Positions 3,403 through 21,950 of a DNA stretch of 64,000 bases are shown one piece after another (the first letter of the stretch is position 1; the number at the start of each line of letters is the position of its first letter). The notes below the pieces were generated by a model that did not search any database, had not been told where the DNA came from, and saw only the letters and a program-made list of their open reading frames with translations. The DNA lies in contig NZ_CP126247.1 of the NCBI RefSeq assembly GCF_030142155.1, positions 3,596,001 to 3,660,000 on the forward strand, given 5' to 3'. The position numbers and the translations under genes were made by a program. Source of the stretch: Arthrobacter sp. zg-Y820 (lineage in GTDB: Bacteria; Actinomycetota; Actinomycetes; Actinomycetales; Micrococcaceae).

Positions 3403-4682
3403 GCGGTGGGCTCCTGGGAGTCGGCGAAGCCGGCCTCGTACCGGCGGTGGAAGTCCAGTTCCTCCTGGATCAGCGGGTGCGCTTCGGCATACACATCGGT
3501 GAAGGCGTCTTCGAATCCGGGTGCCTGCATGGCCAGGACGTCCTCGCGGAGCTTGTCGGCCATCGCCTGTCCGTCCTTGGCCAGCGTGTCGAAGAAGGCA
3601 TCATCGGCAAGGCCCGCCGCGCGCAGGTGTTTCTCCAGCCTGGTCAGCGGATCGCGCGAAACCCAGGCTTCCTCATCGGCGCTGAGACGGTACTTGGTGG
3701 GGTCATCGGCGGTCGTGTGGGCGCTCATCCGGTAGGTGAAGGCCTCGATCAGCACCGGCCCCTTTCCGGAGCGGGCGTGTTCCAGCGCCCAGCGGGTCAC
3801 CGCGTGGACAGCGACGACGTCGTTGCCGTCCACGCGGATGCCGGGGAAACCGTAGCCCTTGGCGCGGTTGGCGAGCGGAATCCTGGACTGCACTTCAGTG
3901 GGCACCGAGATGGCCCAGTGGTTGTTCTGGCAGAAGAAGACGACAGGGGCGTCATACGAGGCGGCGAAGACCATGGCCTCATGGACATCGCCCTCGGAGC
4001 TGGCGCCGTCACCGAAGTAGGCCACTGTGGCTGCCTCGGGGAGCTGCGGTTCCGCTGCCTGGTCCCGGGCCATTCCCATCGCGTAGCCGACGGCGTGCGG
4101 CACCTGTGCGGCCAGGACCAGGGTGTAGAGGTGGAAATTGGCCTCGCTGGGGTTCCAGCCGCCGTGCGAAATACCGCGGAAACGGCGCAGCAGGTGGGAC
4201 AGTTCCAGGCCGCGGGTCAGCGCGACGCCGTGCTCGCGGTAGGTCGGGAACACATAGTCCTGGGGCTGCAGAGCGCGGCCCGATCCGATCTGCGCACCTT
4301 CCTGCCCGGTCATGGGCACCCACATCACGAGTTCGCCCTGCCGCTGGAGCGCCGTGGCTTCCTGGTCAAAGCGGCGAATCGTGAACATGTCCCGATACAG
4401 CCCGCGCAGCTCCTCAGCGCCCAGCTCGGCGGCATAGGCGCCGTAGCTGCTGTCGTCCAGCCACTCCCCTTCGGGGGTCAGCAGCTGCACCATGCCGGTG
4501 CCGTCGGCAGGGCCGGCGGCGGTCGGTGCAGCGGTGCCCGGGGCGGCGGTGCCGCTCTGGCCACGGCTGGTTATTGGGGCGCCGCCGGCGCTCGAGCCGG
4601 TGCCCACGGCGCCGCCGGCGCCGCCGGGCAGGCGGGAGCCATCACCGGCTGCCGTTCGGGCAGGCGAGTGTTTGAGGTCCAT
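3399..4682 (-). CDS. bkdA: 2-oxoacid dehydrogenase E1 component, alpha subunit
   Basis: 427 residues; first gene of the operon. The thiamine-diphosphate motif is clear (GDGASSEGDVHEA ending in the NN pair of CQNNHW), as is the phosphorylation-loop-like YRMSAHTTADDP region. The first ~60 residues are a Gly/Ala/Thr-rich low-complexity extension ahead of MVQLLTPEG. The chosen ATG at 4682 is preceded by GAGGAG at good spacing, so the extension appears to be translated. Upstream lies a 43-base inverted repeat that probably controls the operon. Confidence 0.93.
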   Translation of the reverse strand: MDLKHSPARTAAGDGSRLPGGAGGAVGTGSSAGGAPITSRGQSGTAAPGTAAPTAAGPADGTGMVQLLTPEGEWLDDSSYGAYAAELGAEELRGLYRDMFTIRRFDQEATALQRQGELVMWVPMTGQEGAQIGSGRALQPQDYVFPTYREHGVALTRGLELSHLLRRFRGISHGGWNPSEANFHLYTLVLAAQVPHAVGYAMGMARDQAAEPQLPEAATVAYFGDGASSEGDVHEAMVFAASYDAPVVFFCQNNHWAISVPTEVQSRIPLANRAKGYGFPGIRVDGNDVVAVHAVTRWALEHARSGKGPVLIEAFTYRMSAHTTADDPTKYRLSADEEAWVSRDPLTRLEKHLRAAGLADDAFFDTLAKDGQAMADKLREDVLAMQAPGFEDAFTDVYAEAHPLIQEELDFHRRYEAGFADSQEPTA

Positions 4683-4725
4683 GCTTACTCCTCGCCGGGA
4701 CAGCCACCTGGCCGACCCGTGCTAG

Positions 4726-4768
4726 ATATATGCCCGCCGGGGAATAGATCACCCCGGGGAGCATATAT
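4726..4768. promoter_or_regulatory. large inverted repeat upstream of the E1/E2 operon
   Basis: Two 17-base arms (4726-4742 and 4752-4768), beginning atatatgc on one side and ending gcatatat on the other, match at 15 of 17 positions around a 9-base AT-rich spacer. It lies 44-86 bases upstream of the E1-alpha start and downstream of hisC. No T-run follows on either strand, so a dimeric regulator binding site is more likely than a terminator. No regulator gene is adjacent; the Lrp/AsnC family commonly controls such operons, but that is inference. Confidence 0.6.
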
Positions 4769-4827
4769 GCGGAACTTACTTCCCTCAGCCTAACGAGCGC
4801 ACAGGCCCGGACCGCACTTAGGACACG

Positions 4828-5967
4828 CTAGGAAACGCGTGGTCCCTTTGTATAGGTCGCACAGAGATCCAAGAATCGCGTATTGGCTTCCTCCTCACCG
4901 ACGGTGACCCGAACCCCTTCGGTGCCGAAAGCCCGGACGGCGATGGCCCTCTGCTCCGCCAACGCTGCAAACTCGGGGGTATTGTCGCCGAGTGCCAGCC
5001 AGACAAAGTTTCCCTGCGCGTCCGGAATCCGCCACCCGAGCGCCCTGAGCCCGTTGACCACGCGTGCCCGCTCTTTCACCAGTTCTTGTATTCTTTCCAC
5101 AAGTTCCCCGTGGTGCCGCAGCGACGTGACTGCTGCGGTTTCGGCGAGCTGGGAGACGGCAAACGGCACGGCAGCCACCCGCAGGTATTGCGTGATCGGC
5201 GGGTGTGAGACAGAGTACCCGACCCGAAGTCCGGCCAGTCCCGCCCCCTTCGAGAAGGTCCGCAGCACCACCACGTTGGGGTGCCGGCGGTACATGTCAA
5301 TGCCGTTCACCGCCTCGGGGTCGCGGACAAAGTCTTCGTAGGCTTCATCGATCACGACAATCACGTCGGAAGGCACCTTGGACAGGAAATCCTCCACCTG
5401 GCGGGCGGTCAGTGCCGGACCGGTGGGGTTGTTGGGAGTGCAAAGCAGGACCACGCGGGTCCGCGGAGTGACGGCGGCGGCCATCGCCTCGAGATCATGC
5501 GTGCCGTCCTCCCGGAGCGGCACTTGGACGCTCTCGGCACCGGACAGCCCCACGCTGATGGGATACGCCTCAAAGGAACGCCACGGGTAGATGACCTGGT
5601 CCTGCACGCCGTTTTCGTCTTGGCCGGCGAAGGAGGCCAGCAGCTGGTTCAGTGCGCCAAGGCTTCCGCCGCCGGTGACGATGTCATCAGCCGGGACGTC
5701 CAGGAAAGAGGCCAGCTCGGTGCGCAGAGCGGTGGAGAGCGGATCCGGGTAGCGGTTAATGTCCTGCCGGCCGCTGATCGCCTCCAGGACCACCGGAAGC
5801 GGAGGAAAGGGGTTTTCGTTGGAGGAGAGCTTGTAACTTTCCAGTCCGTCGATGACGGCGGGCGGCTTTCCGGCCGTGTAGCGGGGCAATGCACCCATTA
5901 CGCTGCGGGGACGGATCTCCGGGGCCGGAACGTCAGCTGCGTTGGTGTCATTCTCGGTAGTCGTCAT
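4828..5967 (-). CDS. hisC: histidinol-phosphate / aromatic amino acid aminotransferase
   Basis: 379 residues, class I/II PLP aminotransferase of the HisC/Pat subfamily. Visible motifs: SSNENPFPPLP near the N-terminus, CTPNNPTGP, D207 and Y210 in VVIDEAYEDF, and the PLP lysine K240 in RTFSKGAGLAGLRVGY. HisC converts imidazole-acetol phosphate plus glutamate to histidinol phosphate; Pat homologues act on phenylpyruvate. No other his genes are near, so an aromatic aminotransferase (Pat) role is equally plausible. The ATG at 5967 has only GAGGG directly against it, so the start is not strongly supported by a ribosome binding site. Confidence 0.85.
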   Translation of the reverse strand: MTTTENDTNAADVPAPEIRPRSVMGALPRYTAGKPPAVIDGLESYKLSSNENPFPPLPVVLEAISGRQDINRYPDPLSTALRTELASFLDVPADDIVTGGGSLGALNQLLASFAGQDENGVQDQVIYPWRSFEAYPISVGLSGAESVQVPLREDGTHDLEAMAAAVTPRTRVVLLCTPNNPTGPALTARQVEDFLSKVPSDVIVVIDEAYEDFVRDPEAVNGIDMYRRHPNVVVLRTFSKGAGLAGLRVGYSVSHPPITQYLRVAAVPFAVSQLAETAAVTSLRHHGELVERIQELVKERARVVNGLRALGWRIPDAQGNFVWLALGDNTPEFAALAEQRAIAVRAFGTEGVRVTVGEEEANTRFLDLCATYTKGPRVS

Positions 5968-6093
5968 CCCTCAACCCTAATAGCGTCCGCTTCCCGGCAG
6001 AGGCACGGCCGCGGCGTATGACACCACGACGCCACACAGGACCGCGGCCGGCCAGAACGGCAAACGCGGCGGACGGTGTGCCAGCATGTAGGC

Positions 6094-6492
6094 ATGCGCT
6101 TTCTGATTCGGATCCTCATCAACGCCCTGGCAGTGTGGGTGGCAGGCCTGCTGCTGCCCGGCATCGCGGTCATCGAAACCGGCGGCGCCCTGACCGGCGA
6201 TCCCACTGTCGATCTGGTGCTCGCCTACCTTTTCATCGGGTTGCTCTTCGGCCTCGTCAATGCCCTGATCCGTCCGGTCGTCAAGCTGCTGTCGCTGCCG
6301 CTGACCATCCTGACCCTGGGCCTCTTCACGATCGTCATCAATGCGGGGATGCTCATGCTCACCTCCTGGCTGAGCAGCTATACGCCGGTGGAACTGGCAG
6401 TGGACTCCTTCTTCTGGACGGGCATCCTGGCCTCGATCATTGTCAGCGTGGTGTCCCTGGTGGCGGGCTCACTGACCGGGACCCGCCGGTAA
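6094..6492 (+). CDS. four-TM 'phage holin superfamily IV' membrane protein
   Basis: 132 residues from the ATG at 6094 (MRFLIRILINALAVW); a GTG 18 bases earlier is possible but adds nothing hydrophobic. It has four hydrophobic segments and the family pattern GLVNALIRPVVKLLSLPLTILTLGLF, typical of the PF04020 group of actinobacterial membrane proteins. Despite the family name there is no phage context here, and the cellular role is unknown. It is divergent from hisC, and its 3' end overlaps the convergent hydrolase gene by 24 bases. Confidence 0.85.
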   Translation: MRFLIRILINALAVWVAGLLLPGIAVIETGGALTGDPTVDLVLAYLFIGLLFGLVNALIRPVVKLLSLPLTILTLGLFTIVINAGMLMLTSWLSSYTPVELAVDSFFWTGILASIIVSVVSLVAGSLTGTRR

Positions 6493-7887
6493 CCAGAATC
6501 CCGGCGGCGCGGCTGGACCCACCGGCATCGGCAGCGGCGACACCGGTTTCGGCAGCGGCGGGACAGTTCCCTGCCGGGGCGGAGGCAGCGCCGGGACCGT
6601 GCCCTGCCGGGGCGGCCGCTGCGCAGGAGATTGAGAAGCCGGTTTCCTGGAGAGCTTGAACAGGCCCCGCGTGGCAATGGTTCCGGGCGCGATGACCTCG
6701 GCCAGGTGCGCCAGGGACTCCTTCAGCGACGGATCACCGCTGGCGTCCGCCTGTGCGGCAAGGTCCAGGTAAACATCAAGCTGATGCGCCGGACCCAGGC
6801 CGCCGTCGCCTCCCTCAGGCACCGGTGCAGTGCCCGTGACGGTGATGCGATCTCGCGTATCGGGGTTTGATGCCCCGTCGGCGCCGGTGGCCCAATCCTC
6901 GGCATGCTCCAAATGCAACGCCCTGACGCCCTCGGGAAGGTCCCGGCCCCCGCGCGGCGCGGCCGCAGTCAAAACCATTTCCATGGTGAACTCTCCGTCC
7001 TGCGCCAGTCGCGCAGCGATGTTGACCGCATGAATTCCGCCCTCGCTGTAGCCCGTCAGAATGACTGAATCCCCGGGTGATGCTCCGGACTGCCGCAGGG
7101 CTTGGGCAACGGCTTCGGCCACATACCGGCTGTCCCCGCCCATGCCTTCGACGTTCCCGAGACTATCGAACGGATTCGATATACCCAGTGCTGGATCGTC
7201 CTGCGTTCCGGGCAGCGTGACGATCTGCAGCCGCTGACCGCCGCGGACAACCGTGAGAATTTCGATGACGCCGGCGTCCTCCTCCTCCAGGAGGCGGACG
7301 CGTTCCAGGAGACTCCGGGCGGTGCCGCCCAGCCGGACCTTCCCGTGGTTTCCGGCCTGTTTGCTGACGGCGATCGGTCCGAGGAACCCGTGGCGGCTGA
7401 GCCTGGACTCCAGCTTTTCGGCGGCGCCCTCCGTGTCCGGAAGCATCAGTTCGCTGACTATCCGATCCGGGTATCCCCAGCCGTTGTGGCCCCATAGGTA
7501 CAACGCCAGCCCCAGGGCGGGGACGCCGCGCTGAAGGGCTTTGAGCTCCTTTTCCACCCGTCCTTCAACCTCGAGATAGTTCTCGCCAGCTTTCCGAAGG
7601 CGCCGCGCCGCATCCTCCAGTTCCTCGATGCCCCGGAGGAGACCTTGAACTGCTGCATCCACCGCATCTGCAGCTCGGGCTGCCGCCTCAGGCAACGCGC
7701 TGAGCCCGCGCAATCGAAAGCAGAGATCCGTGCCGCGGAACCGCAGGTCCTGCAGCCGTTCGGAGGTGTCCTCCAGCTTTCCTCCGGTTGCTTCGAGCTC
7801 GCGGTATTCCACGGCAAGTCCCCTGGACCCGCCCTTGACTATGGGACCGCCGGGATCCTCGGTCGATGCGAGCGCCGGGGCCTTCAT
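6469..7887 (-). CDS. alpha/beta-hydrolase-like protein with helical (WXG-like) N-terminal region
   Basis: 472 residues. Residues ~25-120 are predicted helical and Ala/Glu/Arg-rich, resembling the WXG100/LXG-type N-terminal domains of type VII-associated proteins. The C-terminal ~250 residues contain a serine-hydrolase nucleophile elbow, GYSEGG, within VILTGYSEGGIHAVNIAARLA, suggesting a lipase/esterase. The tail is Pro/Gly-rich. The start abuts the stop of the upstream small gene (TAA then ATG), so the two are translationally linked. No signal peptide is present. Substrate unknown; type VII export or a contact-dependent effector role is inference only. Confidence 0.7.
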   Translation of the reverse strand: MKAPALASTEDPGGPIVKGGSRGLAVEYRELEATGGKLEDTSERLQDLRFRGTDLCFRLRGLSALPEAAARAADAVDAAVQGLLRGIEELEDAARRLRKAGENYLEVEGRVEKELKALQRGVPALGLALYLWGHNGWGYPDRIVSELMLPDTEGAAEKLESRLSRHGFLGPIAVSKQAGNHGKVRLGGTARSLLERVRLLEEEDAGVIEILTVVRGGQRLQIVTLPGTQDDPALGISNPFDSLGNVEGMGGDSRYVAEAVAQALRQSGASPGDSVILTGYSEGGIHAVNIAARLAQDGEFTMEMVLTAAAPRGGRDLPEGVRALHLEHAEDWATGADGASNPDTRDRITVTGTAPVPEGGDGGLGPAHQLDVYLDLAAQADASGDPSLKESLAHLAEVIAPGTIATRGLFKLSRKPASQSPAQRPPRQGTVPALPPPRQGTVPPLPKPVSPLPMPVGPAAPPGFWLPAGPGQ

Positions 7888-8166
7888 TTAGCTGTCCCCC
7901 GCGTTCAGCAGCCGCAGTTCGCCCGCATACCGGACGAGCACTTCCGCAGCGGCTTCAAAATCGCGCACGGTTGTGGCCATGCGGCTCACGCACCCGTGCA
8001 GAAATTCCGCGAACTCGTCGGCAGCTTCGGAGCGCCATTCCATCCTCTGCAGCTGTGGAAGGTCCCGTTCCAGCGACTCCAGCTCCTCAATCGCGGCCTG
8101 CACATATTCGGCTCCGGCTTCTGCTTCCGACATACCCGGCGGATTGTCCCCGTAGACCGGATCCAT
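7888..8166 (-). CDS. small WXG100-like protein
   Basis: 92 residues, predicted as a helical hairpin. The turn region MEWRSEAADEFAEFL resembles the W-x-G...AA..F signature of WXG100/ESX proteins, with serine at the glycine position. The ATG at 8166 has an AGGGG ribosome binding site 5 bases away. It is immediately followed by the hydrolase gene, the arrangement seen for type VII small partners and their cognate larger substrates. No EccC or other secretion machinery gene lies in the window. Confidence 0.6.
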   Translation of the reverse strand: MDPVYGDNPPGMSEAEAGAEYVQAAIEELESLERDLPQLQRMEWRSEAADEFAEFLHGCVSRMATTVRDFEAAAEVLVRYAGELRLLNAGDS

Positions 8167-8371
8167 TTGTTTCCCCTATCCCGACTGCTTGCTCCGTTCC
8201 CTGCGCCTCTGTTCTCCCACGTAACCGCACGGGCCAGTGCCGTCCTCGGATCAGTTGTGGATAAAAGCGCGCAGAGGCGGCCGCAGGCGCCGCAGTGGAG
8301 GACAGGTCAGCGGACGCACAGCAGCGAAGCTTGAGCAGCTCTCATTGATGAGGAAACAGTGGGAAACACGG

Positions 8372-8439
8372 ACGGGAGCCCGGCTGCCGCGACGCGGCCG
8401 GACTCCCGTTCCCGGTGGGGACCGGCCGCGCGGGCCGGT
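8372..8439. terminator. two GC-rich hairpins downstream of the monooxygenase unit
   Basis: One hairpin pairs 8421-8427 with 8433-8439 (7 bp, perfect). A second pairs 8372-8384 with 8397-8409 (12 of 13 bp). Both lie 45-115 bases beyond the stop of the last gene of the minus-strand unit. Neither has a T-run, so they are candidate terminators or processing sites only. The rest of the 318-base gap 8167-8484 shows no gene. Confidence 0.45.
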
Positions 8440-8484
8440 ACTCCCGATGCTCCTCAGACCGTCGTTGCTTCTGTCTGGGCTCAC

Positions 8485-9030
8485 CTACTGCTCGAAGGTG
8501 GCGGTGAGCACTCCCCTGCCGAGCGTGTGGCCGTACAGGTTGAACGCCAAGAAGGCCGGGGTGGCGTTCTCGGGGAGTCCGAGCGATTCCACATCCAGTG
8601 CATGAACCGCTATGTAGTACGTGTGCAGTCCGTTTCCGGGAGGAGGAGCGGCACCCAGGAACTGCTTGAGGGAGAGATCGTTGGCCAGTTGCCAGGCGCC
8701 GTCGGGCAGGCCGGCTCCCGTTGGCGAGCCGGCACCGGTCTCCAACTCGTTAACCGCGGCGGGGATGTCGGCCACGGCCCAGTGCCAAAACCCGGATCCC
8801 GTCGGCGCTTTGGGGTCGTAGACCGTGACGGCGTAGCTCTTGGTGCCCTCCGGGGCTCCGCTCCACGACAATTGGGGCGAGACATCAGCGCCTCCGGCGC
8901 CGAGGATGCCGCTGCGCTGAGGAACCGGCCATTCTCCGCCGTCGTCGACATCGGCGGACGTCACGGAGAATTCCGCAACCCCCGGGAGATCGGCAAAGGG
9001 ATCACGCGGTTCGGTCATTGTTGCTGCCAT
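8485..9030 (-). CDS. YbhB/YbcL-family PEBP-like protein
   Basis: 181 residues. The family pattern is evident: DPFADLPGVAEFSVTSADV, then SPQLSWSGAPEGTKSYAVTVYDPKAPTGSGFWHWAVADIP (ligand pocket Asp-Pro and His), then the C-terminal YYIAVHALD and LYGHTLGRGVLTA. These are phosphatidylethanolamine-binding-protein homologues of unsettled bacterial function. The ATG at 9030 has AGGAG 5 bases upstream, and that site overlaps the GMC gene stop, so it is very probably the last gene of the monooxygenase unit. Confidence 0.9.
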   Translation of the reverse strand: MAATMTEPRDPFADLPGVAEFSVTSADVDDGGEWPVPQRSGILGAGGADVSPQLSWSGAPEGTKSYAVTVYDPKAPTGSGFWHWAVADIPAAVNELETGAGSPTGAGLPDGAWQLANDLSLKQFLGAAPPPGNGLHTYYIAVHALDVESLGLPENATPAFLAFNLYGHTLGRGVLTATFEQ

Positions 9031-9038
9031 GATTGCTC

Positions 9039-10607
9039 CTAAATGAATTGCTGGTGCATTTGGTCGACGATGTATTCCGCCTGCCGTGTCGCCAGGGCAA
9101 CGATCGTCAGGGTCGGATTGGCCGCCGCGCCGGTGGTGAACACGGAACCGTCCGAGACAAAGAGATTGCTGATTTCATGGGACTGCCCGAAGGCATTGAC
9201 CACGCCGTCCTCGGGGCGTGAGCTCATTCGGGCCGTGCCGAGGTTGTGGGTCGAGGGGTACGGCGGGGTGTGCGTGGTGTCATCCGAGCCGACGGCCGAG
9301 TACAGCAGGTCCGCCTGCTGGTAGGCGTGTTCCCGCATGGCCACGTCATTGGGATGGTCGTCGAAATGCACGTTGGGGACCGGCAGCCCGAGCGGATCCG
9401 TGACCGCACTGTTCAGTGTGATCCGGTTGGATTCCTGCGGCATGTCCTCCCCAACAATCCACATTCCGGCGGTGTTCAGGTACTCCGCCATCACATGGGC
9501 AAACGTCGGTCCCCAGGTACCCGGATCCACGAAGCTGGCGAGGAAGGCCGGCCCGAGGGAGAGCGTTTCCATGTAGTAGCCGCCGGAGAAACCCCGGCCG
9601 GTGTCATGCCGTGATTCATCCGCGATGATCCCGGCCATGGTCTCTCCGCGGTACATCCGGACCGGCTGGTCGAAGCGTGCGTAGACGGATCCGGTGGTGT
9701 GGCGCATGTAGTTGCGCCCGACCTGGCCGGAATAGTTGCTGAGGCCGTCCGGATGCCTGGAATCGGCGGACATGAGCAGCAGCCGCGGCGTTTCGATGGC
9801 GTTGCCGGCCACGCACACGGCCCGGGCCAGCTGGCGCTGCACCTGGCCGTCGGCGTCGATGTAGATGACCCCGTCCGCCTTTCCGAACGCATCCACGGTG
9901 ATCTGCACGGCCTGCGAGTTCGGCCGCAGGTCCAGCAGCCCGGTTTTTTCCGCCTTGGGGATCTCGCTCACCAGGGTGGACCACTTGGACTTGTTTTTGT
10001 CTCCCTGGAAGTTGAAGCCGTCCTGGATGCTGGCGGGCCGGCCGTCGTAGGGTTCGGCATTGGTGGCGTAGGGGCCGGTGGCGTAATGCCGGTACCCGAT
10101 CTTCTCGGCGCCGTTGGCAAAGACCTTGTAGTTGTTGTTGGCCGGAAGGGCCGGCCGCCCATGGCGGTGCGTGCTGCCCATCTTTTTCTCGGCCGCGTCA
10201 TAGTACGGCTCAAGATCCGCCAGGGATATCGGCCAGTCTTCGAGGTTGGCCCCCTCGATCCGGCCGTAGGTGGAGCGTGCCGTGAACTCGTGAGCCTTGA
10301 ACCGCGGTGTGGCGCCGGACCAGTGCGTGGTGCTGCCGCCCACTGCCTTGACGATCCAGGCCGGAAGGTTTGGGAAGTCGCGGGCCACCCGCCAGCTGCC
10401 GCTGGTGGTCCGGGGATCCAGCCAGGCCATCTGGTTGAAGGCCTCCCATTCATTGTTGACGTAGTCCTCGTTGAGGATGTGGCCGCCGGCCTCCAACGCC
10501 ACCACCGGCACCCCGGACTTCGTCAGCTCATACAGGACCGTGCCCCCGCCCGCGCCGGTGCCGATAACCACCACTGCAGATTTGTCGTCAAACTCGATCT
10601 TGGCCAC
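9039..10607 (-). CDS. GMC-family FAD oxidoreductase (gluconate/fructose dehydrogenase-like large subunit)
   Basis: 522 residues from a GTG at 10607. The N-terminal FAD-binding fold reads VVVIGTGAGGGTVLYEL with the ribose-binding glutamate in ALEAGG. GGSTTHWSGATPR and LEPYYDAAEK are typical of the large subunits of membrane-linked gluconate and fructose dehydrogenases. The C-terminus carries HNLGTARM and AANPTLTIVALATR of the GMC family. There is no signal peptide, so a cytoplasmic site is likely. The GTG overlaps the stop of the subunit-3-like gene in TAGTG, implying a two-subunit enzyme. The substrate may be an alcohol or hydroxy compound arising from alkane oxidation; this is inference. Confidence 0.9.
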   Translation of the reverse strand: MAKIEFDDKSAVVVIGTGAGGGTVLYELTKSGVPVVALEAGGHILNEDYVNNEWEAFNQMAWLDPRTTSGSWRVARDFPNLPAWIVKAVGGSTTHWSGATPRFKAHEFTARSTYGRIEGANLEDWPISLADLEPYYDAAEKKMGSTHRHGRPALPANNNYKVFANGAEKIGYRHYATGPYATNAEPYDGRPASIQDGFNFQGDKNKSKWSTLVSEIPKAEKTGLLDLRPNSQAVQITVDAFGKADGVIYIDADGQVQRQLARAVCVAGNAIETPRLLLMSADSRHPDGLSNYSGQVGRNYMRHTTGSVYARFDQPVRMYRGETMAGIIADESRHDTGRGFSGGYYMETLSLGPAFLASFVDPGTWGPTFAHVMAEYLNTAGMWIVGEDMPQESNRITLNSAVTDPLGLPVPNVHFDDHPNDVAMREHAYQQADLLYSAVGSDDTTHTPPYPSTHNLGTARMSSRPEDGVVNAFGQSHEISNLFVSDGSVFTTGAAANPTLTIVALATRQAEYIVDQMHQQFI

Positions 10608-11257
10608 TATTCGCCCCTTGCTTCACGCCGGGCGAAGCCCGAACTGGGTCCAACACCTGACAGTTCATCCGGACCCGCCGCTGCGGCGGCAGCCGGAACG
10701 GCACCGCCGCCGGCCGCTTGGCCGGCCGCCGCGGGACGGGCTGACGCGACCGGCACCGCGGCCACACGGTAGGGCAGGGGGCCCTGGTCCGGCACCTGTT
10801 CCTCCGACTCGTCGATCCGGGGCTCCGGGAGCCAGTCCAGGTCGTTGAATCCCCGATGCAGATAGCCGCCCTGGTCAAAGGACGATCCCTCGTAGCCCAG
10901 CGCTTCCCAGACTTCGGGATCATCGTAGAAGTTCAGCACCGTGGTCCGCCGGATGAATCCGAAAAACACCGAGTCTTCGATGCGGCGCAGGACGCTCATC
11001 GCCTCCTCATCGGAGAGGTCGATGAAGCGGTGCTCGTCAGCGGCGGCGTTTAGGGTGGCCAGCCCCTGGACGAGCTCAATGCGGAACCAGGTGGAGGCGG
11101 CGGCTTCGGCAGCGATTTTCGCAGCCGTCCGGGCGTACGGCCCGTCCGGGAACCCGGGATGCGGGAACGCTACCCGGAGGATCCGGATGAGCGTGGACTG
11201 GGCCTCCTCGGACAGCTGCGTGGCGTTGAGGGATGGATACTTGGCTGGAAGTTTCAT
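10607..11257 (-). CDS. gluconate 2-dehydrogenase subunit 3-like protein
   Basis: 216 residues from the ATG at 11257 (MKLPAKYPSL), chosen over an upstream ATG at 11284 because GGAG lies 6 bases before it. The first ~145 residues carry subunit-3 family features (TLIRILRVAFPHPGFPDGPYA; FDQGGYLHRGFNDLDWLPEP). The last ~60 residues are an Ala/Gly/Pro-rich tail. The usual Tat signal of subunit 3 is absent, matching the lack of an export signal on its GMC partner. It is 62 bases downstream of the GroEL paralogue and overlaps the GMC start by one base. Confidence 0.85.
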   Translation of the reverse strand: MKLPAKYPSLNATQLSEEAQSTLIRILRVAFPHPGFPDGPYARTAAKIAAEAAASTWFRIELVQGLATLNAAADEHRFIDLSDEEAMSVLRRIEDSVFFGFIRRTTVLNFYDDPEVWEALGYEGSSFDQGGYLHRGFNDLDWLPEPRIDESEEQVPDQGPLPYRVAAVPVASARPAAAGQAAGGGAVPAAAAAAGPDELSGVGPSSGFARREARGE

Positions 11258-11319
11258 CGGATCTCCTTCGATCAAATGAGTCAAATGCGTTGAAAATCTG
11301 GGAACAGATGCCGTGCAAC

Positions 11320-14092
<2,773 letters not shown>

Positions 14093-14096
<4 letters not shown>

Positions 14097-14443
14097 GGCT
14101 GGACCGGCATCAGGTCAAAGCCGATGTACTCGGCTGCCTCTTCGGGGTTGGCGAAGAGCATGGTGCGGTCATCGAAATGCACCATGCGCCCGTAGTGCGT
14201 GGACATGATTTCCTCGAAATCCGTCTGGTCGAAATCCTGGCCGAGCTCTTCTCCGATCTCGGCGAAATCGAACGTCAGGGTCTCGGTGCTGTCGACCCGG
14301 ATCATGGAGGGAAATTCCACCAGCTTCACCCCGGGCTTGCGGCCCATGACCTCGGCAACGACATATCCGTTCTGGTTGTTCATGAGGGTGACACCGCACA
14401 TGTTCGAGGATCCGGCGACAGATCCAAATACCATTTCGTTCAT
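14093..14443 (-). CDS. prmD: monooxygenase coupling/regulatory protein (MmoB/DmpM family)
   Basis: 116 residues, usual size. It contains the family pattern [21 protein letters not shown] followed by [29 protein letters not shown]. This cofactor-free effector binds the hydroxylase and tunes oxygen activation and substrate access. The start at 14443 shares one base with the hydroxylase beta stop, and the stop overlaps the ADH start. The fourth monooxygenase component in order A-B-C-D. Confidence 0.93.
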
Positions 14444-15561
14444 CAGTTCAGCTCCTTCGGTACGTCGATTCCGAGGTCCTTCAACAACAGGGTGCGGAGG
14501 CCGTCCTTTGCCGCCTCGAACGATTCAGCGAACGGCATCACGCGTTCCAGCGGCTGGGACCAGATGGGCTGAAGGTCCTGTGCCGCCTTCAGGCTTCGGG
14601 GCACCCAGACCGCCAGCCACTCGGACAGCTTCGCTTTGTTGGCTTCACCGTGCGCTTCATCGCGCACCAGCATGGCGAACAGCGCCCTGGTGTAGGCCTG
14701 GTCGCGGCTGTAGTCGTGTTCCCCGGAGCCCACCAGGCTGGGGGTGACGTAGTCACCGTTGCGGGCAGCGATCTGCATGACCAGGTGGCTCCGGAACAGC
14801 ACGCCGACGAGCTGCTCGTAAACCACGTTGGTGGCGAAGACTGCCTCGGCCCAGTCGCTGGCGGCGGTCAGGAGCTCGACGTTTTCCCGGACACCCTGCC
14901 AGACCGGATCGGTCTGCCACACCTCCCGGTGCACGTCGCCGTTGAACCCCTCGACCACCTCGCTCAGGTCAAGGTTGTACAGCGCCAGGTCCTGGGCGAA
15001 ACGCAGCTTGTGAGCACTGTTGACGGCCACGGCGGTGTTGATCATGTTGGTGGGGCCCGAGCGCTGGACGGCGGTGAACACATGCAGGCCCAGACCGTGC
15101 TCTGCGTGCATCCACGCACCGAGGTTCCGTTCCACGAACCGGGTCCAGGCCGGCGTCCAGCTGTCATAGGCCTTGGCCAGCTGGGCGTTGGCCAGGTTCT
15201 GCTGCACCTGGCGGACCACATTGGCATTGTTGCGGAAAATGGTCTGTTCCCACTCGCCGTTCGGATCCCGGAACTGGTGCCAGTCACTGGATTTCAGCGC
15301 GGTCCATTCCTTGGGATAACCCCCGGGGCCGTCACGGAATCCGTAGATCCAGCCCTGATAAAGATGTCGTTCCGGATCAGGCTGCACGTCGAGAGTGACG
15401 TCTTCATACATGGTGGCCCGCAGCTTTTCGGGAGTGAAATAGCTGTACGACCGGCTGGTGGAGCTCGGGAATTCCAGCGCGCCGGCTTCGGCGTCAGTGA
15501 ATTGCGGCTTGGGAAAGCTGCGCTCCGGATTTTCGGGCTTGGCCGCTGTGGGTGTGCTCAT
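14443..15561 (-). CDS. prmC: soluble diiron monooxygenase hydroxylase, beta subunit
   Basis: 372 residues from the ATG at 15561 (MSTPTAAKP); a longer frame to 15690 would run into the reductase gene. Family features: [49 protein letters not shown] and the [12 protein letters not shown] helix. Like other beta subunits it lacks the iron ligands and packs against the alpha subunit in the (alpha-beta)2 hydroxylase. It is 17 bases downstream of the reductase gene. Confidence 0.93.
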
Positions 15562-15578
15562 GGTGATGCTCGCTTTCC

Positions 15579-16628
15579 TCAGTCTTGCGGAACCGTGGTT
15601 GTGAATTTGTCGAAGAAGACCTGCTCGCGCGGGACATTTTGGCTGTCCAGGAAGGCCATGGCGGCGTCGACCATGGGAGTCGGCCCGCACAGGTACAGGT
15701 CGGTCCCGGTCAGGTCAGCTTCGCGGCGTTCGAGGACGTCGGTGACCCGGCCGACTTCGACCGCCATCCCCAGGTTGGTCCCGTCCGCCGCGCCGCCGTC
15801 GGAGAGGCAGGGAATGAACGTGAAGTCAGCGAGCCGGCTGCCCAGCTCGCTGATCTCGGCCAGATAAAAAAGATCCGCGGCGGCGCGGGCGCCAAAGTAG
15901 AAATGCACCGGCCGTGGATTCTGCGTCTTCGCCAAATGGCGCAGCAGGGACAGGATCGGCGCCAGCCCGGCGCCGCGGCCCACGCAGACGATGGGGCGCT
16001 CCGATTTGTCCCTGATGGTGAAGGATCCATAGGGGCCGGCCAGGTCGAGTTTGTCGCCGACCTTCAGCTCGGACTCCAGCAGGGCGGAGAACCTTCCGCC
16101 CGGATACCTCTTAATGATGAATTCGAGCTCCGGACCGTCGTCGGGAGTCATTGCCATGGAGAAGGAGCGGTGCTCCGGCGTGCCGGGGATCACCAGGTCC
16201 GCGTACTGGCCCGGTTTGAACTGGAACCGCGCGGATCCGGCCGGCAGCAGCTTCAGCGACACGATGTCAGCCGTCAGCGCAGTGATCGCCGTGACGGAGG
16301 TGGTCAGATTCTGCAGGGGAACCGCGTTGCGCAGCTCGTCCTCGTCAAAATTGATCAGTTCAACTTCGCAGTCACTGTAAACATGCGTCTTGCAGAGCAG
16401 GACGTACCCTTCCTCGCTTTCCGACTCGGCCAGCGCGAAAGTGGAATACCGGTCCATCTGGACATCGCCGTCGAGCAGGAAGGACTTGCAGGCGGAGCAT
16501 TGGCCTTCCCGGCAACCGTGCATCAGGGAAACCCCCTGCCGGAACGCCGCATCCAGGACGGTTTCGTCCTCGTCGACGTCGATCTCAAGTTCAACCGGTT
16601 CGAAGCGGACTTTGTGGTTCCTGCCCAT
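15579..16628 (-). CDS. prmB: monooxygenase NADH reductase component
   Basis: 349 residues from the ATG at 16628, which has GGAGAAAG just upstream; the frame stays open further but without a site. A plant-type [2Fe-2S] domain carries C39, C44, C47 and C79 (GCREGQCSAC; LLCKTH). An FAD domain (HRSFSMAM for flavin; YPGGRFSALL) and a NAD-binding domain (GRGAGLAPILSLLRHL; LYLCGPTPMVDAA) follow. It passes electrons from NADH to the diiron hydroxylase. Confidence 0.94.
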   Translation of the reverse strand: MGRNHKVRFEPVELEIDVDEDETVLDAAFRQGVSLMHGCREGQCSACKSFLLDGDVQMDRYSTFALAESESEEGYVLLCKTHVYSDCEVELINFDEDELRNAVPLQNLTTSVTAITALTADIVSLKLLPAGSARFQFKPGQYADLVIPGTPEHRSFSMAMTPDDGPELEFIIKRYPGGRFSALLESELKVGDKLDLAGPYGSFTIRDKSERPIVCVGRGAGLAPILSLLRHLAKTQNPRPVHFYFGARAAADLFYLAEISELGSRLADFTFIPCLSDGGAADGTNLGMAVEVGRVTDVLERREADLTGTDLYLCGPTPMVDAAMAFLDSQNVPREQVFFDKFTTTVPQD

Positions 16629-16755
16629 TCTTTCTCCTAGCAAGTGTCTTTCTCCGGCCAATGCGGACGGTGGCGGTGGCCTTGGCCGGCCGGCTGGCCC
16701 GGAAGCGGCGCCAGGCGCGTGCAATAACGCCGCTTCCGGGTGATCAAGGGGGTTC

Positions 16756-18405
16756 TTACCCCGTGGCCGCGAAGCGGCCTCCCGGTCCGCCTGCCTTGTA
16801 GGCCGCAATGTGGGCCTCCCGCTCCGAGTCGGACATTTCGTTCAAGGTCACGTTGGGGCTGGGGAAGGGGATGCCCTTGAAGTCGTCGAGTGTCCACAGC
16901 TTCTTGGGATCATCAAGGTCGAGGTGCGGTTGCGCGATGAGGGTCTTGCCGTCGTCGCGCACGTAGCCGAGCTTCTTGATGATGTGGGAAACCTCCTCGT
17001 TGTGGTTGAGGGTCTCCCATTCCCGGTCTCCGGTGAGCCGGCCCATGTTCGGCGTCGGCCTGCCCTCGTACTCGGGCCGGAAGGCCTTGATGTCGGTCCA
17101 GGCGCAGGTTTCGGAACAGTAGGTCCGCCACTGTCCGTCGACCTTTTCCGTCACCATGTCCTCGCGGATCAGGCACGGCACCATGCACGTCCAGCACCGG
17201 TGCGGGTACTGGTAGTCGACGTCTTCGAAGGCGATGGCCTTGTGCCCGCCCGGATAGCGCAGCCGGTTGTAGTTTTCCCACCATTTGCCGTACTTGCTGT
17301 ACCAGCCGGGATACTTCTCCTCGAACCACTCGAAGTCCTGGTCAGTCATCGGATCGATCCGCCAGTAGTTCACCGGCCAGCCGGTGGCGAAGAACTGCGC
17401 CACCTCGTGGACGTATCCCTTGTTGACGATGCGGTTCCAGGCCTCTTCGACCAGGTCATGCGGGATTTTCAGGCCGTACTTTTCCAGCGGCAGCAGATAG
17501 CTGCGGTAATAGTCGTCGTAGATCCAGCGCCGCCACATTTCGGCGTAGCTGTCCCGGTCCTTCCGGCGGTCCTTGGTGCCGTACTCAATGAACGTGCCGA
17601 TCGCGGCGTCGACGACGCAGTGGTTGTTCCACCAGGCGTACCGCAGGTCGCGTTCGAGCAGCACCCGGTTGTCCTCATCGGCCAGGGCCATCAGCAGGAT
17701 GGAGTAGCCGTTGGAGATGTGCCGTGACTCGTCGGACTGGACCGAGTGGAAGACCGTCGGCAGCAGGTAGTCGCCGTTGGCTGCGGCCTCCGCAGGCATG
17801 GCGACGAACAAGGTGTTGGTGAACGCTGTTTCGGCCACCACCGTCAGGTAGATGTTGGCCGCGGTGATGGCATCACCGGTGATGAAGCCCTCGCCGAACT
17901 GGCGGCCGATGGTGCCGGCGTAGTTGTTGGCGAAGGCCTTCTCGCTGATGTCGAACCCTGCCGGGTCGATGTAGTGGTTCATGTACAGCTTTTTCAGGTT
18001 CATCTGGATCGTGGAGTGGCGGACCTCGTCGATCATCTGGACGGCCAGCCCGTTGTGCAGGTCCGGATTCGGAACGGCGTCAATGGCCATGGGCATGGCC
18101 CGGGCTGCCGAGATCTCCGGGAACGGAATGATGGACAGGAAGAGCTTCTGCCACTCCATCCAGCGCTCCTGCACCTGGCGGAACATGTTGCCGCGGATCG
18201 CGCCGTCCATGGCGCCGTACACGCGGTTGTCCTTCTCCTCCTCCATCGGGAAGTAGGAGCGCAGGATCTGCTTCAGCGGATCCTTCTTGGGGGATTTGGT
18301 GAAGTTGTAATCGGTGCCAAATCGGGTTGCCGGCGTGGCGAAGGTCGGTTCCCACGACAACTCGCTGATCTTCTTGTGAGCCTTGCTCAAGCTTTGCCTG
18401 CTCAA
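16756..18405 (-). CDS. prmA: soluble diiron monooxygenase hydroxylase, alpha subunit (propane 2-monooxygenase type)
   Basis: 549 residues. The iron ligands are all in place: E97, E127 and H130 (DEVRH), E192, E226 and H229 (DESRH). Their spacing (30, 3, 62, 34, 3) is identical to E114/E144/H147/E209/E243/H246 of soluble methane monooxygenase. The sequence closely follows actinobacterial PrmA/MimA as I remember them (start [29 protein letters not shown]). The product catalyses NADH- and O2-dependent hydroxylation of propane or similar small substrates. The start codon is TTG at 18405, supported by AAGGAGG five bases upstream. First gene of the long operon. Confidence 0.95.
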
Positions 18406-18431
18406 CGCTGCCTCCTTGTTAGGGCTGGGGC

Positions 18432-18460
18432 ACCCGCGGGGCCGTCATGGACCCGCGGGT
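18432..18460. promoter_or_regulatory. inverted repeat in the prmA leader region
   Basis: acccgcggg at 18432-18440 pairs with cccgcgggt at 18452-18460 around an 11-base loop; the right copy is itself a 10-base palindrome (18451-18460). It lies 27-55 bases upstream of the prmA start, where it could form a leader hairpin or act as an operator. Confidence 0.4.
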
Positions 18461-18508
18461 CGGAGGCGGTCCGAAGTGCCGAAGCATCGGTGGCGCATCG
18501 GTTGGGTG

Positions 18509-18585
18509 CCGATTCGATTCGGCCGGCCCGCCTCTGTGATCCAATGACACCGGAACCGGGCTGGGGACGGCGTCTCATTTTGAGA
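18509..18585. promoter_or_regulatory. candidate activator sites between prmA and its divergent regulator
   Basis: The 293-base divergent gap contains a perfect interrupted palindrome tctcattttgaga (18573-18585) and a near-perfect 14-base palindrome ccgattcgattcgg (18509-18522, 6 of 7 pairs). They lie 104-180 bases from the prmA start, a typical distance for upstream activator sites. Assignment to the adjacent AcoR/MimR-like regulator is inference. Confidence 0.45.
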
Positions 18586-18698
18586 TGGGCTTCCGGAGCC
18601 GCGCCCGGTAAGCTCCAGAAACGAAGGCGGCCCTCGGCGCGCCCAAACGGACCTGGGGGAGGTCTTTCGGTAGTGCAGACTTCAATGCTGAAGGCGGT

Positions 18699-20477
18699 GT
18701 GGCGATGGGATCCCGGCCAACGGGCGCCAGCGAGCGCCAGCTGCATGAGGCAAGAGAACGATTCCTAACGGCTCAGGCGGCGGAGGCGGAAGCTGCGGTG
18801 CGGGAACCGATCCGGCAGTCCTGGCTTAGGTCCCGCGCACTGACGGTGCATCCCCACCGGGCGGAATCCCAATTCATCCGCGAACCCAACACCGAAGCCA
18901 CGCTGATCCGGGCGGCCGCCCCGATTCTGGCGCAGCTGGCGGAAAACCTCGCCGCCGAACCCGTGGCCGTGATCCTGACAACCGCCGACGGCGTGATCAC
19001 CCAGCGGATAACGGCTGACCGGACAATCAAGGCAGCCATGGACGATGTCCGGCTGGCCCGGGGGTACAGCTACTCGGAACAGTTTGTCGGCACCAACGGC
19101 ATTGGCACTGCCGTGGAAATGCGAATGCCCGCCCTGGTGCTGGGCCGGGAACACTACACGGATGATCTGGCGGCCCTGTCCTGTGCCGGCGTGCCGATTC
19201 TCCATCCGGTGTCCGGGAAGCTGCTGGGCGTCCTCGACCTCACCACCTGGGCGGCCAACGGCGGCAGTCTCCTCATGACCCTGGCCAAAACCGCGGCCCG
19301 GCACATCCAGGACCGGATCCTGAGCCAGGCCCTCGAAGCGGAGACCGCCCCGTTCAACGGTTTCCTGCGAGCATCCAGGCGGACCTCGCAGGCAATCCTG
19401 GCTCTCGGCGGGGATCAGGTGCTGATGAACCGGAAGCTGCGGTCCTCCCTGGACGGACAGGACCTGGCCTCGCTGGCGGAGTACGCCCTGGAGTCCACGC
19501 ATCCGGCCGGCCGGAACTTCATTGTGCCGCTGCCCAGCGGGCGGACCGTCCGACTGTCAACGGAGCCGCCGGATCACGACAGCACAAGCACCGTGTTCAC
19601 CGTCCAGCTGCTGGAGCCGGCCCGCGCTGCCGCGGCAGGACATCCCGGCCGGCAGACCCTGCCCGGGCTCGTGGGCAGGAGCCCGTCCTGGCGCCGGAGC
19701 CAGCAGGAGGTTGACCGCTGCTACCGGGACGGCGGCTGGTTCCTGGTTGCCGGGGAACCCGGCAGCGGCCGCGCCGCGCTGCTCCGCTCGGTGGCTGCGC
19801 AGTTCCCTTCGGCCGCCCGCTTGGAGGTCCTGGGTCCGGGAGGGCACCGGACCAAGGAGGAATACCTCAATGCCGTGGCGGCGGCGGTGGAGGAGGAGAA
19901 CTTCGAGCTGCTGCTTCGGGACGTTAATACCCTCCCGGCCGAGCTGGTGGAGCCGTTGTCCGGCCTGCTGCAGTCCGCGGAGGGCAGGGGGCGGCTGATG
20001 GCAACCGTCGACAGCACCGTGGATGATCCGGATTTCGAGGTCAGCATTCAACCGTTTTTCAAGCACACGGTGGCGGTTTCCGCGCTCCGCCACCGGATAG
20101 AGGATCTGGATGAGCTGGTGCCTCATCTGCTCGGCAAGGCGGCGCAGCAGCCCGGCAAGGGGCCCGGTGTCACGCTTTCGCCGGAGGCCATGCAGCACCT
20201 GGCCAAATTCAACTGGCCCGGCAACGTGGCGCAGCTGCGGGGAATCCTCCGCGATGTGACGCTGCGGCAGCGCTCCGGTGTGGCCGGGACTGACCAGCTG
20301 CCGGCCGAGGTGCGGGCCCTGAGCAAATACCGCCTCTCACCGTTGGAGGCGCTGCAGCGCGACGCGATTGTGCGGGCGCTGGAGGAGAACGACGGCAATA
20401 TGACCCGGGCCGCGGCGGCGCTGGGCATGTCCCGCGCAACCATTTACCGGCGCAAACGCTCGTATGGCATCAGGTGA
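18699..20477 (+). CDS. AcoR/MimR-like transcriptional regulator (GAF, degenerate AAA+, Fis-type HTH)
   Basis: 592 residues. N-terminal region with GAF-like sensor (IRQSWLRSR; GTNGIGTAVE; LSCAGVPILHPVSGKLLGVLDLT). The central part aligns with sigma-54 activator AAA+ domains, but its Walker A reads GEPGSGRAAL (Lys and Ser/Thr replaced) and the GAFTGA loop is absent. The C-terminus is a Fis-type helix-turn-helix (NMTRAAAALGMSRATIYRRKR). Actinobacteria lack sigma-54, so it probably activates by direct contact, as proposed for MimR in the mycobacterial mim cluster. It is divergent from prmA and likely controls it. GTG at 18699 or ATG at 18705 are both possible starts. Confidence 0.88.
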   Translation: MAMGSRPTGASERQLHEARERFLTAQAAEAEAAVREPIRQSWLRSRALTVHPHRAESQFIREPNTEATLIRAAAPILAQLAENLAAEPVAVILTTADGVITQRITADRTIKAAMDDVRLARGYSYSEQFVGTNGIGTAVEMRMPALVLGREHYTDDLAALSCAGVPILHPVSGKLLGVLDLTTWAANGGSLLMTLAKTAARHIQDRILSQALEAETAPFNGFLRASRRTSQAILALGGDQVLMNRKLRSSLDGQDLASLAEYALESTHPAGRNFIVPLPSGRTVRLSTEPPDHDSTSTVFTVQLLEPARAAAAGHPGRQTLPGLVGRSPSWRRSQQEVDRCYRDGGWFLVAGEPGSGRAALLRSVAAQFPSAARLEVLGPGGHRTKEEYLNAVAAAVEEENFELLLRDVNTLPAELVEPLSGLLQSAEGRGRLMATVDSTVDDPDFEVSIQPFFKHTVAVSALRHRIEDLDELVPHLLGKAAQQPGKGPGVTLSPEAMQHLAKFNWPGNVAQLRGILRDVTLRQRSGVAGTDQLPAEVRALSKYRLSPLEALQRDAIVRALEENDGNMTRAAAALGMSRATIYRRKRSYGIR

Positions 20478-20528
20478 CCCGCAAGTCACACAGCAGGGAG
20501 CGCGGCCGAGCCGTGAAAGAATTGCGGC

Positions 20529-21950
20529 ATGGCTGACTCCGCTGCTTCCCGCGTCCCTCTTGCTTCCGTCACTCCCGCCATTGCGCTCGGTCCGTTGGAC
20601 GGCCGCTACCGCGGCGTCACGGCCCCGCTGGTGGACTACCTGTCCGAGGCCGCGCTGAACCGCGACCGCACGCACGTCGAAGTCGAGTGGCTGATCCACC
20701 TCACGTCCAATGCTGTGCTTCCCGGCACTTCCCCGCTGAGCGCCGAGCAGCAGGCGCAGCTGCGCGAAATCGTCTCCGGTTTCGACGGCAACTCGATAGC
20801 CGAACTGGGTGAAATCGAGCAGGTCACGGTTCACGACGTCAAGGCCGTGGAGTACTACATCGGCCGCCGCCTGGCAGCCATCGGCATCGAAAACCTGACC
20901 TCGCTGGTGCACTTCGGCTGCACCTCTGAGGACATCAACAACCTCTCCTACGCCCTGGGCGTCAAGGGCGCCGTGGAGAATGTCTGGCTTCCCGCCGCGC
21001 ACGACCTGGTCGACCGGATCACAGTCATGGCCGAGGAAACCCGCGCCGTGCCGATGCTCTCCCGGACGCACGGCCAGCCCGCCACCCCCACCACTCTGGG
21101 CAAGGAACTGGCCGTGACGGCCCACCGACTGTCCCGGCAGCTGCGCCGCATTGAGAAGACCGAATACCTGGGCAAAATCAACGGCGCCACCGGCACCTAC
21201 GCGGCACACTACGCTTCGGTGCCCGACGCCGACTGGCAGCAGGTGGCGCGCAGCTTCGTCGAGGGCCTGGGCCTGCACTGGAATCCGCTGACCACGCAGA
21301 TCGAATCCCACGACTGGCAGGCCGAGCTGTACGCCGACATGGCCCGGTTCAACCGGATCCTGCACAACTTCTGCACCGACGTGTGGAGCTACATCTCCAT
21401 CGGCTACTTCAAGCAGATCCCGGTGGCCGGCGCCACGGGTTCCTCCACCATGCCGCACAAGGTCAACCCGATCCGCTTCGAAAACGCCGAAGCCAACCTG
21501 GAGATCTCCAACGGCCTGCTGGACACTCTGGCATCCACCCTGGTGACTTCCCGCTGGCAGCGCGACCTCACGGATTCCTCCTCACAGCGCAACATCGGCG
21601 TGGCGTTCGGCCACTCGGTGCTCGCCATCTCCAACGTGGCCAAGGGCCTGGAGCGCCTGGACGTGGCCGACGACGTCCTGGCCGCGGACCTGGACACCAA
21701 CTGGGAGGTGCTCGGCGAAGCCATCCAGATGGTCATGCGCGCCGAGGCCATCGCCGGCGCCCCCGGCATGGAAAACCCGTACGAACGCCTCAAGGACCTG
21801 ACCCGCGGGCAGCGCGTGGACGCCGAGCGGATGCGCGAATTCGTCTCCGGCCTGGGCCTGCCGGCCGACGCCGAAGCGCGCCTGCTGGACCTGACCCCGG
21901 CCAAGTACATCGGAATCGCCGACTCGCTGGTGGACCACGTCACCAAGTAG
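20529..21950 (+). CDS. purB: adenylosuccinate lyase
   Basis: 473 residues, normal for the actinobacterial form. It carries the fumarase/aspartase superfamily signature GSSTMPHKVNPIRFENAEAN with the catalytic serine loop, plus HFGCTSEDINNLSYAL and RTHGQPATPTTLGKE. The enzyme acts twice in purine synthesis, cleaving SAICAR to AICAR and adenylosuccinate to AMP. It begins 51 bases after the regulator gene and is followed by a strong terminator, so it forms its own unit or shares read-through. Confidence 0.96.
   Translation: MADSAASRVPLASVTPAIALGPLDGRYRGVTAPLVDYLSEAALNRDRTHVEVEWLIHLTSNAVLPGTSPLSAEQQAQLREIVSGFDGNSIAELGEIEQVTVHDVKAVEYYIGRRLAAIGIENLTSLVHFGCTSEDINNLSYALGVKGAVENVWLPAAHDLVDRITVMAEETRAVPMLSRTHGQPATPTTLGKELAVTAHRLSRQLRRIEKTEYLGKINGATGTYAAHYASVPDADWQQVARSFVEGLGLHWNPLTTQIESHDWQAELYADMARFNRILHNFCTDVWSYISIGYFKQIPVAGATGSSTMPHKVNPIRFENAEANLEISNGLLDTLASTLVTSRWQRDLTDSSSQRNIGVAFGHSVLAISNVAKGLERLDVADDVLAADLDTNWEVLGEAIQMVMRAEAIAGAPGMENPYERLKDLTRGQRVDAERMREFVSGLGLPADAEARLLDLTPAKYIGIADSLVDHVTK

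Follow-up and report, generated by a model that had tools for sequence, protein, structure and literature searches.

What does a flavoprotein gene pair do in a propane monooxygenase operon? The question is raised by a locus of Arthrobacter sp. zg-Y820, analyzed here within a 64,000-nucleotide stretch of its genome (contig NZ_CP126247.1, positions 3,596,001 to 3,660,000 of the forward strand; hereafter the window). Behind genes for a predicted Mim-type (Prm) propane monooxygenase, an alcohol dehydrogenase (ADH) and a GroEL-like chaperonin stand three more, here called the trio: a gluconate-dehydrogenase-subunit-3-like (Gdh3) gene, a GMC flavoprotein gene and a YbhB/PEBP-family gene. The answer favored here, with moderate confidence, is that a Mim-type propane monooxygenase operon carries an acetol (hydroxyacetone) dehydrogenase module, and that the products of the operon would take propane to methylglyoxal. 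The features of the unit, in window coordinates, are as follows.

8320..20485, no strand: ~12.2-kb insertion between conserved chromosomal neighbors, borders approximate and placed by eye
18699..20477, plus strand: divergent regulator with a Fis-type C-terminus, related to DhaR/AcoR (NCBIfam DhaR 115 bits, below the cut-off of 551)
16756..18405, minus strand: prmA/mimA, hydroxylase large subunit (Phenol_Hydrox, Pfam PF02332, 5e-57)
15579..16628, minus strand: prmB, reductase with 2Fe-2S, FAD and NAD domains (Pfam Fer2, FAD_binding_6 and NAD_binding_1 on the longer open reading frame (ORF) 15579-16808)
14443..15561, minus strand: prmC, hydroxylase small subunit (Pfam PF02332, 8e-53, on the longer ORF 14443-15690)
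14093..14443, minus strand: prmD/mimD, effector protein (NCBIfam NF045941 PropMonoxMimD, 184 bits, cut-off 150)
13071..14096, minus strand: zinc ADH of prm type, putative 2-propanol dehydrogenase (Pfam ADH_N, ADH_zinc_N)
11320..12969, minus strand: GroEL-like chaperonin of the prm cluster (TIGR02348, 703 bits)
10607..11257, minus strand: Gdh3 small subunit, no twin-arginine (Tat) signal seen
9039..10607, minus strand: GMC flavoprotein, proposed catalytic subunit of acetol dehydrogenase (Pfam GMC_oxred_N and GMC_oxred_C)
8485..9030, minus strand: YbhB/PEBP-family protein, last gene of the unit (PF01161, 3.6e-36)
8366..8450, minus strand: stable hairpin 3' of the PEBP gene, possible transcript end, with no T run (-55.6 kcal/mol, z -3.81)

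The minus-strand order prmA-prmB-prmC-prmD-adh-groEL-gdh3-GMC-PEBP at 8485-18405 was confirmed, together with the overlaps and joints given in a preliminary description of the sequence. Four components ordered A-B-C-D, with hydroxylase, reductase and effector domains, were found as in the Mim/Prm-type (group 5) monooxygenases. Judged from its sequence, the window enzyme is a predicted Mim-type (group 5) propane monooxygenase, the oxidation of propane at C2 being labeled by the MimD equivalog alone. PrmA is 87-93% identical to the PrmA of actinobacterial clusters L131-L137 and L171-L174, and two ExxH motifs (EVRH and ESRH), the diiron ligands of the large subunit, were recognized by eye in its translation. 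GroEL is 64-77% identical to the GroEL of the closer prm clusters and 52-53% to that of the remaining ones. The PEBP protein scores 117 bits against TIGR00481 (cut-off 57.75), which places it in the YbhB/YbcL PEBP family.

The preliminary description had proposed one transcription unit with an added flavin oxidation step. This is still the simplest reading: the genes lie on the same strand, overlap, and belong to a single insertion. The description had also named a promoter between groEL and position 11257, with alkane-independent expression, as a finding that would count against it; none was seen, a sigma-70 consensus scan of 8300-20600 giving 0 promoter-like sites in 12.3 kb (1.1 in shuffled sequences), and that scan is insensitive. 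The groEL-gdh3 gap folds no better than its shuffles. Terminator-like sites number 9 in the same 8300-20600 interval against 8.6 in shuffles, and the hairpin at 8366..8450 is absent from this pattern scan.

The trio and the prm core form one insertion, because in nine of nine examined congeners the corresponding site next to purB is without the whole ~12.2-kb unit, and the DNA on both sides is colinear with the window, with 0.2-2 kb between (nine of 28 congeners were fetched for this comparison). Colinearity runs from the window start region to 6440-8109 and resumes from 20481-20565 on, purB included. The insert holds the regulator, prmABCD, adh, groEL, gdh3, GMC, PEBP and little more; no flanking direct repeats are evident at its ends. 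Within the genus PrmA occurs in one of 29 genomes, the source genome, and in one of 197 in a family sample. Of 394 genomes searched across the class, 11 have PrmA and three have the GMC at 75% identity or more; the source genome alone has both. Gain of the unit here is simpler than its loss in 28 other congeners. A GMC protein at 77-79% identity occurs in six of these 28, but a quick tree with some weak forks places the window copy outside the clade that they form. On this ground vertical descent of the GMC in Arthrobacter was rejected; the position of the protein outside its own genus clade would fit arrival with the insert. The divergent regulator belongs to the unit as well, its counterparts adjoining other prm clusters: its best match at each of 16 further actinobacterial prm clusters is 34-49% identical.

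What kind of flavoprotein was acquired? The window GMC has the motif GTGAGGGT, which we take to bind FAD, plus THN and NPT, whose His and Asn are presumably catalytic. In a 90-sequence GMC alignment these columns read THN in 90 of 90 rows and NP in 90 of 90. The closest solved relatives are the large subunits of fructose and glucose dehydrogenase. In these enzymes three cysteines presumably hold a [3Fe-4S] cluster; the CCGNNNC cysteines of fructose dehydrogenase align with SIQDGFN of the window. At this place 87 of the 90 aligned proteins, the window GMC included, read [ST][IV]QDGFNFQGD, and three prm-linked proteobacterial ones read CQQIGFCFQGC. The three cysteines are present in all six prm-linked proteobacterial GMCs that were read and absent from the window GMC. 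A candidate assignment as MftG, the mycofactocin dehydrogenase, was rejected (NCBIfam TIGR03970, 33.5 bits against a cut-off of 387).

The claim of the preliminary description that the trio is without export signals was upheld, none being seen by eye at the N-termini of Gdh3, GMC and PEBP. The Pfam TAT_signal model gave no match to the window Gdh3 at E <= 1; the model is insensitive and also missed the Gdh3 of Methylocella tundrae. The Gdh3 of three prm-linked Alphaproteobacteria has a twin-arginine stretch at the N-terminus by eye, which Pfam detects in Azospirillum and not in M. tundrae, and the annotation of the Ponticoccus record names a twin-arginine signal in Gdh3. Among 48 Gdh3 ORFs from module loci away from prm (described below), several of them with wrongly called starts, inspection by eye suggests a Tat-like N-terminus in six of 12 from Proteobacteria and perhaps in one more, compared with none of 36 from Actinobacteria at a credible start. 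The cysteine-free GMC and the Tat-less Gdh3, both of which the window has, are not strictly coupled, because half of these 12 proteobacterial proteins look Tat-like. A c-type cytochrome query from the Azospirillum prm locus detected none in the window at E <= 1e-8, although it recovered those of M. tundrae and Bradyrhizobium. For Gdh3, a Foldseek search of its model against the PDB returned nothing at E <= 0.001, its alignment profile gave a single row among solved structures (E 0.68, a designed protein), and no close relatives were found in viral contigs.

Does the same association exist elsewhere? Plasmid records with PrmA number 21, and those with this GMC family 69. By coordinates, no more than 10 kb separates the GMC from prmA in at least 11 of the 21, a lower bound since 60 of the 69 GMC records were compared. 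The 11 are four Azospirillum records, Indioceanicola (across the record start), Bradyrhizobium CB82, Skermanella, two M. tundrae records, Ponticoccus and Gemmobacter. Gdh3-GMC near prmABCD recurs in Alphaproteobacteria. In Ponticoccus the order on a single strand is prmABCD, ADH, amidohydrolase, iron-sulfur (Fe-S) assembly, GroEL, SDR, VOC, Gdh3, GMC, which is near the window order; its listed ADH, however, resembles that of the window at only 28%. The M. tundrae locus reads GMC, Gdh3, VOC, cytochrome c, RHH, sigma-54 regulator, unannotated GroEL pieces, D, C, B, A. Its GMC is 62% identical to that of the window, and the two fall in one branch of a quick tree (SH-aLRT 100). The linkage of GMC and prm seems to have arisen at least twice, because the six prm-linked proteobacterial GMCs that were read carry the other, three-cysteine subfamily. 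Genes of a 2-oxo acid dehydrogenase complex (E1 alpha, E1 beta, lipoyl, E2) come before the prm-linked Gdh3-GMC pair of Gemmobacter fulvus (L161, 1272-5657).

The substrate is suggested by Methylocella. The Methylocella silvestris GMC Msil_1641, the only relative with a tested function that was found, is induced by propane, and its deletion mutant grows more slowly on propane, accumulates acetol and no longer grows on 2-propanol or acetone (PMC7364539). The M. tundrae GMC locus is probably the counterpart of the Msil_1641 locus, because its gene order fits the gene numbers Msil_1641, 1643 and 1648-1651 (PMC7364539). Mim-type monooxygenases convert acetone to acetol (PMC7176365, PMC8764830). 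In Methylacidiphilum, GMC genes adjoin pmoCAB3, and genes for glyoxalase and lactate dehydrogenase accompany them (PMC8630023, PMC12235487). The phenotype of the Msil_1641 mutant together with the acetone-to-acetol activity of Mim suggests that the route from propane through 2-propanol, acetone and acetol to methylglyoxal may be encoded within one operon. PrmABCD would form 2-propanol from propane, the operon ADH would oxidize it to acetone, and PrmABCD would act a second time to hydroxylate acetone to acetol. The Gdh3-GMC flavoprotein pair would then oxidize acetol to methylglyoxal in the cytoplasm, and chromosomal enzymes would convert methylglyoxal to lactate and pyruvate. By analogy, acetol is the probable substrate of the window GMC, which would act in the cytoplasm with neither Fe-S cluster nor cytochrome c; its electrons would pass to quinone or oxygen. 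GroEL presumably aids folding of the hydroxylase. For the PEBP protein we can only guess at an accessory role, in which it might assemble or stabilize the Gdh3-GMC pair.

The preliminary description had held that such a flavin step was undescribed for prm clusters. In general this does not stand, given the recurrence in Alphaproteobacteria and the M. silvestris GMC, which lies a few genes from the propane monooxygenase genes and was assigned to acetol after its deletion (PMC7364539). It does stand for the Actinobacteria that were read. Sixteen other actinobacterial prm clusters were examined in stretches of 17-32 kb (L131-L138, L171-L176, L182, L183; the PrmA loci L139 and L177, cut by contig ends, were excluded), and within these stretches Gdh3, GMC and PEBP are found in 0 of 16. 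Co-occurrence in other genomes, the lack of which the same description had accepted as decisive, is therefore present in the plasmid records and lacking in this actinobacterial sample. Three Rhodococcus plasmid records carry PrmA: two were read over ~31 kb and have no GMC, and the third is not among the 60 GMC records listed. No actinobacterial prm cluster with the trio was met in the listed titles and abstract openings of the open-licence literature, an absence that counts for little.

The core of these clusters is that of the window. GroEL and an AcoR/DhaR-like regulator occur in 16 of 16, B-C-D in 15 of 16, and an ADH of 62-79% identity in 12 of 16. In these 12, amidohydrolase and Fe-S assembly genes adjoin prmD, ADH or GroEL; the window has none at 13071-14443. 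A homologue of the prm-cluster amidohydrolase gave no match in the source genome, in a search run with no positive control alongside. A plasmid of Rhodococcus aetherivorans BW2 (L131, 15001-21935) has a cut-down copy, with PrmA (494 residues matched), ADH and GroEL, and no match to PrmB, PrmC or PrmD.

Away from prm, the pair is common. The best 80 of at least 575 GMC relatives, at 69-79% identity, were surveyed with their surroundings (60 of these loci span 20 kb or more, and 13 fall short of 15 kb). Gdh3 was found by tblastn in 79 of the 80, an ADH of 57-65% identity directly before Gdh3 in 23 (a 24th is cut at a contig end), and a PEBP gene directly after the GMC in 13. Neighbors include IclR-type regulators (40), GlcD-like FAD/Fe-S oxidases (16), SDRs (10), GldA-like proteins (8), Dld D-lactate dehydrogenase (7) and glyoxalase I (6); these are lower bounds from crude ORF clusters, in which six of the 80 loci have no GMC frame, only 48 Gdh3 ORFs are present, and one representative per class was named. 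A possible lactate dehydrogenase of the source genome has 62% identity to the GlcD-like representative. Derivation of the window ADH from such a module was rejected: in the ADH tree, from which rows below 50% identity were omitted and which replaced an earlier tree with long paralogous branches, the window ADH groups with prm-cluster ADHs (support 92/94) and all 23 module ADHs form a separate clade (99/98).

PrmA occurs elsewhere in the genome in three of 49 searched module genomes (drawn from 50 loci of the 80). They are Actinomycetospora endophytica and Pseudonocardia sp. N23, with matches at 79% and 76%, and Pseudogemmobacter, where 276 residues match at 68%. In the first two the GMC and PEBP genes lie near a window-like regulator (37% over 145 residues and 31% over 591, respectively). 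In the Pseudonocardiaceae loci L107 and L111 (~1276-12053), Gdh3-GMC-PEBP is near a regulator of the window kind with PrmA elsewhere in the genome, and co-regulation of the two without linkage is possible there. In Pseudogemmobacter bohemicus (L184, 9333-10780) the 276 PrmA residues are closely followed by a partial GroEL match, as if a deletion had cut the cluster down.

Several results weigh against an acetol dehydrogenase in this operon. The trio is missing from the 16 actinobacterial clusters, and 46 of the 49 module genomes have no PrmA match. The nearest solved GMC relatives act on sugars. The Methylocella enzyme whose function was tested is a more distant relative (62%, with M. tundrae as proxy) and is probably of the three-cysteine type, since the window GMC is cysteine-free and all six prm-linked proteobacterial GMCs have the cysteines. 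Among the six prm-linked proteobacterial loci, a c-type cytochrome gene was found near the pair in no more than three, those of M. tundrae, Azospirillum and Bradyrhizobium, which makes the contrast with the window less sharp; a VOC gene was found in five of the six, and the Azospirillum VOC query detected no glyoxalase in the window. Adh1, not a GMC protein, has been proposed for acetol in an actinobacterium (PMC7176365). Nothing follows for acetone from a search for acetone carboxylase (PF08882), which had no match in the source genome and likewise none in 14 control genomes.

Could the pair instead be a second, flavin-linked dehydrogenase for 2-propanol (or 1,2-propanediol), feeding respiration in parallel to, or in place of, the NAD-dependent ADH? 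A GMC protein was proposed to act on 2-propanol in Methylacidiphilum IT6 (PMC8630023), and the GldA-like neighbors in eight of the 80 related loci (one representative named) point the same way. However, a prm-related ADH directly precedes Gdh3-GMC in 23 of these loci, which reduces the likelihood of a duplicated function; the Methylocella GMC mutant accumulated acetol (PMC7364539), and a dual role was judged unlikely (PMC12235487). We consider this alternative doubtful. It is unlikely, too, that the pair oxidizes a sugar or alcohol unrelated to propane, as a hitch-hiker in the prm unit or captured by it, and is merely co-transcribed. The fructose and glucose dehydrogenase relatives and the scarcity of PrmA in module genomes speak for it, as does the lack of any prm gene seen beside the 80 closest loci (13 of them under 15 kb), but the same GMC family lies within 10 kb of prm in those 11 or more plasmid records and several recurrent module neighbors fit methylglyoxal or lactate metabolism. 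That the GMC is an oxidase with oxygen as acceptor, for acetol or another product, is likewise unlikely, although compatible with the acetol route: the lack of Fe-S cysteines, and of a cytochrome c in the window by the Azospirillum query, leaves no visible electron exit, whereas a Gdh3 partner is typical of dehydrogenases.

The acetol dehydrogenase reading can be carried further, to a version that we put forward tentatively. One gained operon would hold all the cytoplasmic steps from propane to methylglyoxal; its Gdh3-GMC would work with no Fe-S cluster, haem subunit or export signal, with PEBP as a working partner; and it would have been recruited independently of the exported proteobacterial type, supplying the missing actinobacterial acetol dehydrogenase. 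A flavin step beside a propane cluster is known already from Methylocella. New, as far as could be seen, are the pair in an actinobacterial Mim operon, its reduced form lacking cysteines and export signal, and the PEBP partner there. In an actinobacterial proteome study the acetol-consuming enzyme is a proposal (Adh1), not a finding (PMC7176365), and the operon offers a concrete candidate. It also suggests that two unrelated lineages joined the same enzyme family to the same monooxygenase. The three-cysteine form, accompanied at some loci by a Tat signal and a cytochrome c gene, stands in natural contrast to the form with none of these, and through this contrast the electron path of Gdh3-GMC can be tested. 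If the substrate were proved, the widespread prm-free module with its at least 575 relatives could be annotated at once.

Two other features of the window were noted. Positions 30356-32440 encode a xanthine dehydrogenase-type, molybdopterin-binding large subunit, with two shorter predicted genes just upstream (from 28747); the region 28747-32440 may be a three-subunit molybdenum hydroxylase operon. The tRNA with a four-base anticodon that ARAGORN calls at 7627-7722 lies within a predicted coding frame and is most probably spurious.

How does the unit compare with known systems? With the actinobacterial prmABCD/mimABCD clusters, among which we count that of Gordonia TY-5, the window shares PrmA, B-C-D, ADH, GroEL and the regulator, which are common to most of them; it adds Gdh3-GMC-PEBP and is without the amidohydrolase and Fe-S assembly genes. 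The modules of Arthrobacter, Brevibacterium, Microbacteriaceae and others have a GMC at 69-79% that is cysteine-free as in the window, but no prm genes were seen beside them, 40 of the 80 have an IclR-type regulator, and their ADHs belong to a separate clade. Compared with fructose dehydrogenase (7w2j, 9jqa) and FAD glucose dehydrogenase (6a2u), the window GMC is without the aligned CCGNNNC cysteines, and no Tat signal or haem subunit was found. The propane monooxygenase (PrMO) locus of Methylocella silvestris and M. tundrae is like the window in combining prmABCD with Gdh3-GMC of one family. In M. tundrae the pair is accompanied by a c-type cytochrome gene and a VOC (glyoxalase) gene, with a twin-arginine Gdh3 (by eye) and a three-cysteine GMC, none of which was found for the window; the window, unlike the M. 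tundrae locus, has the PEBP gene and the ADH in the same operon.

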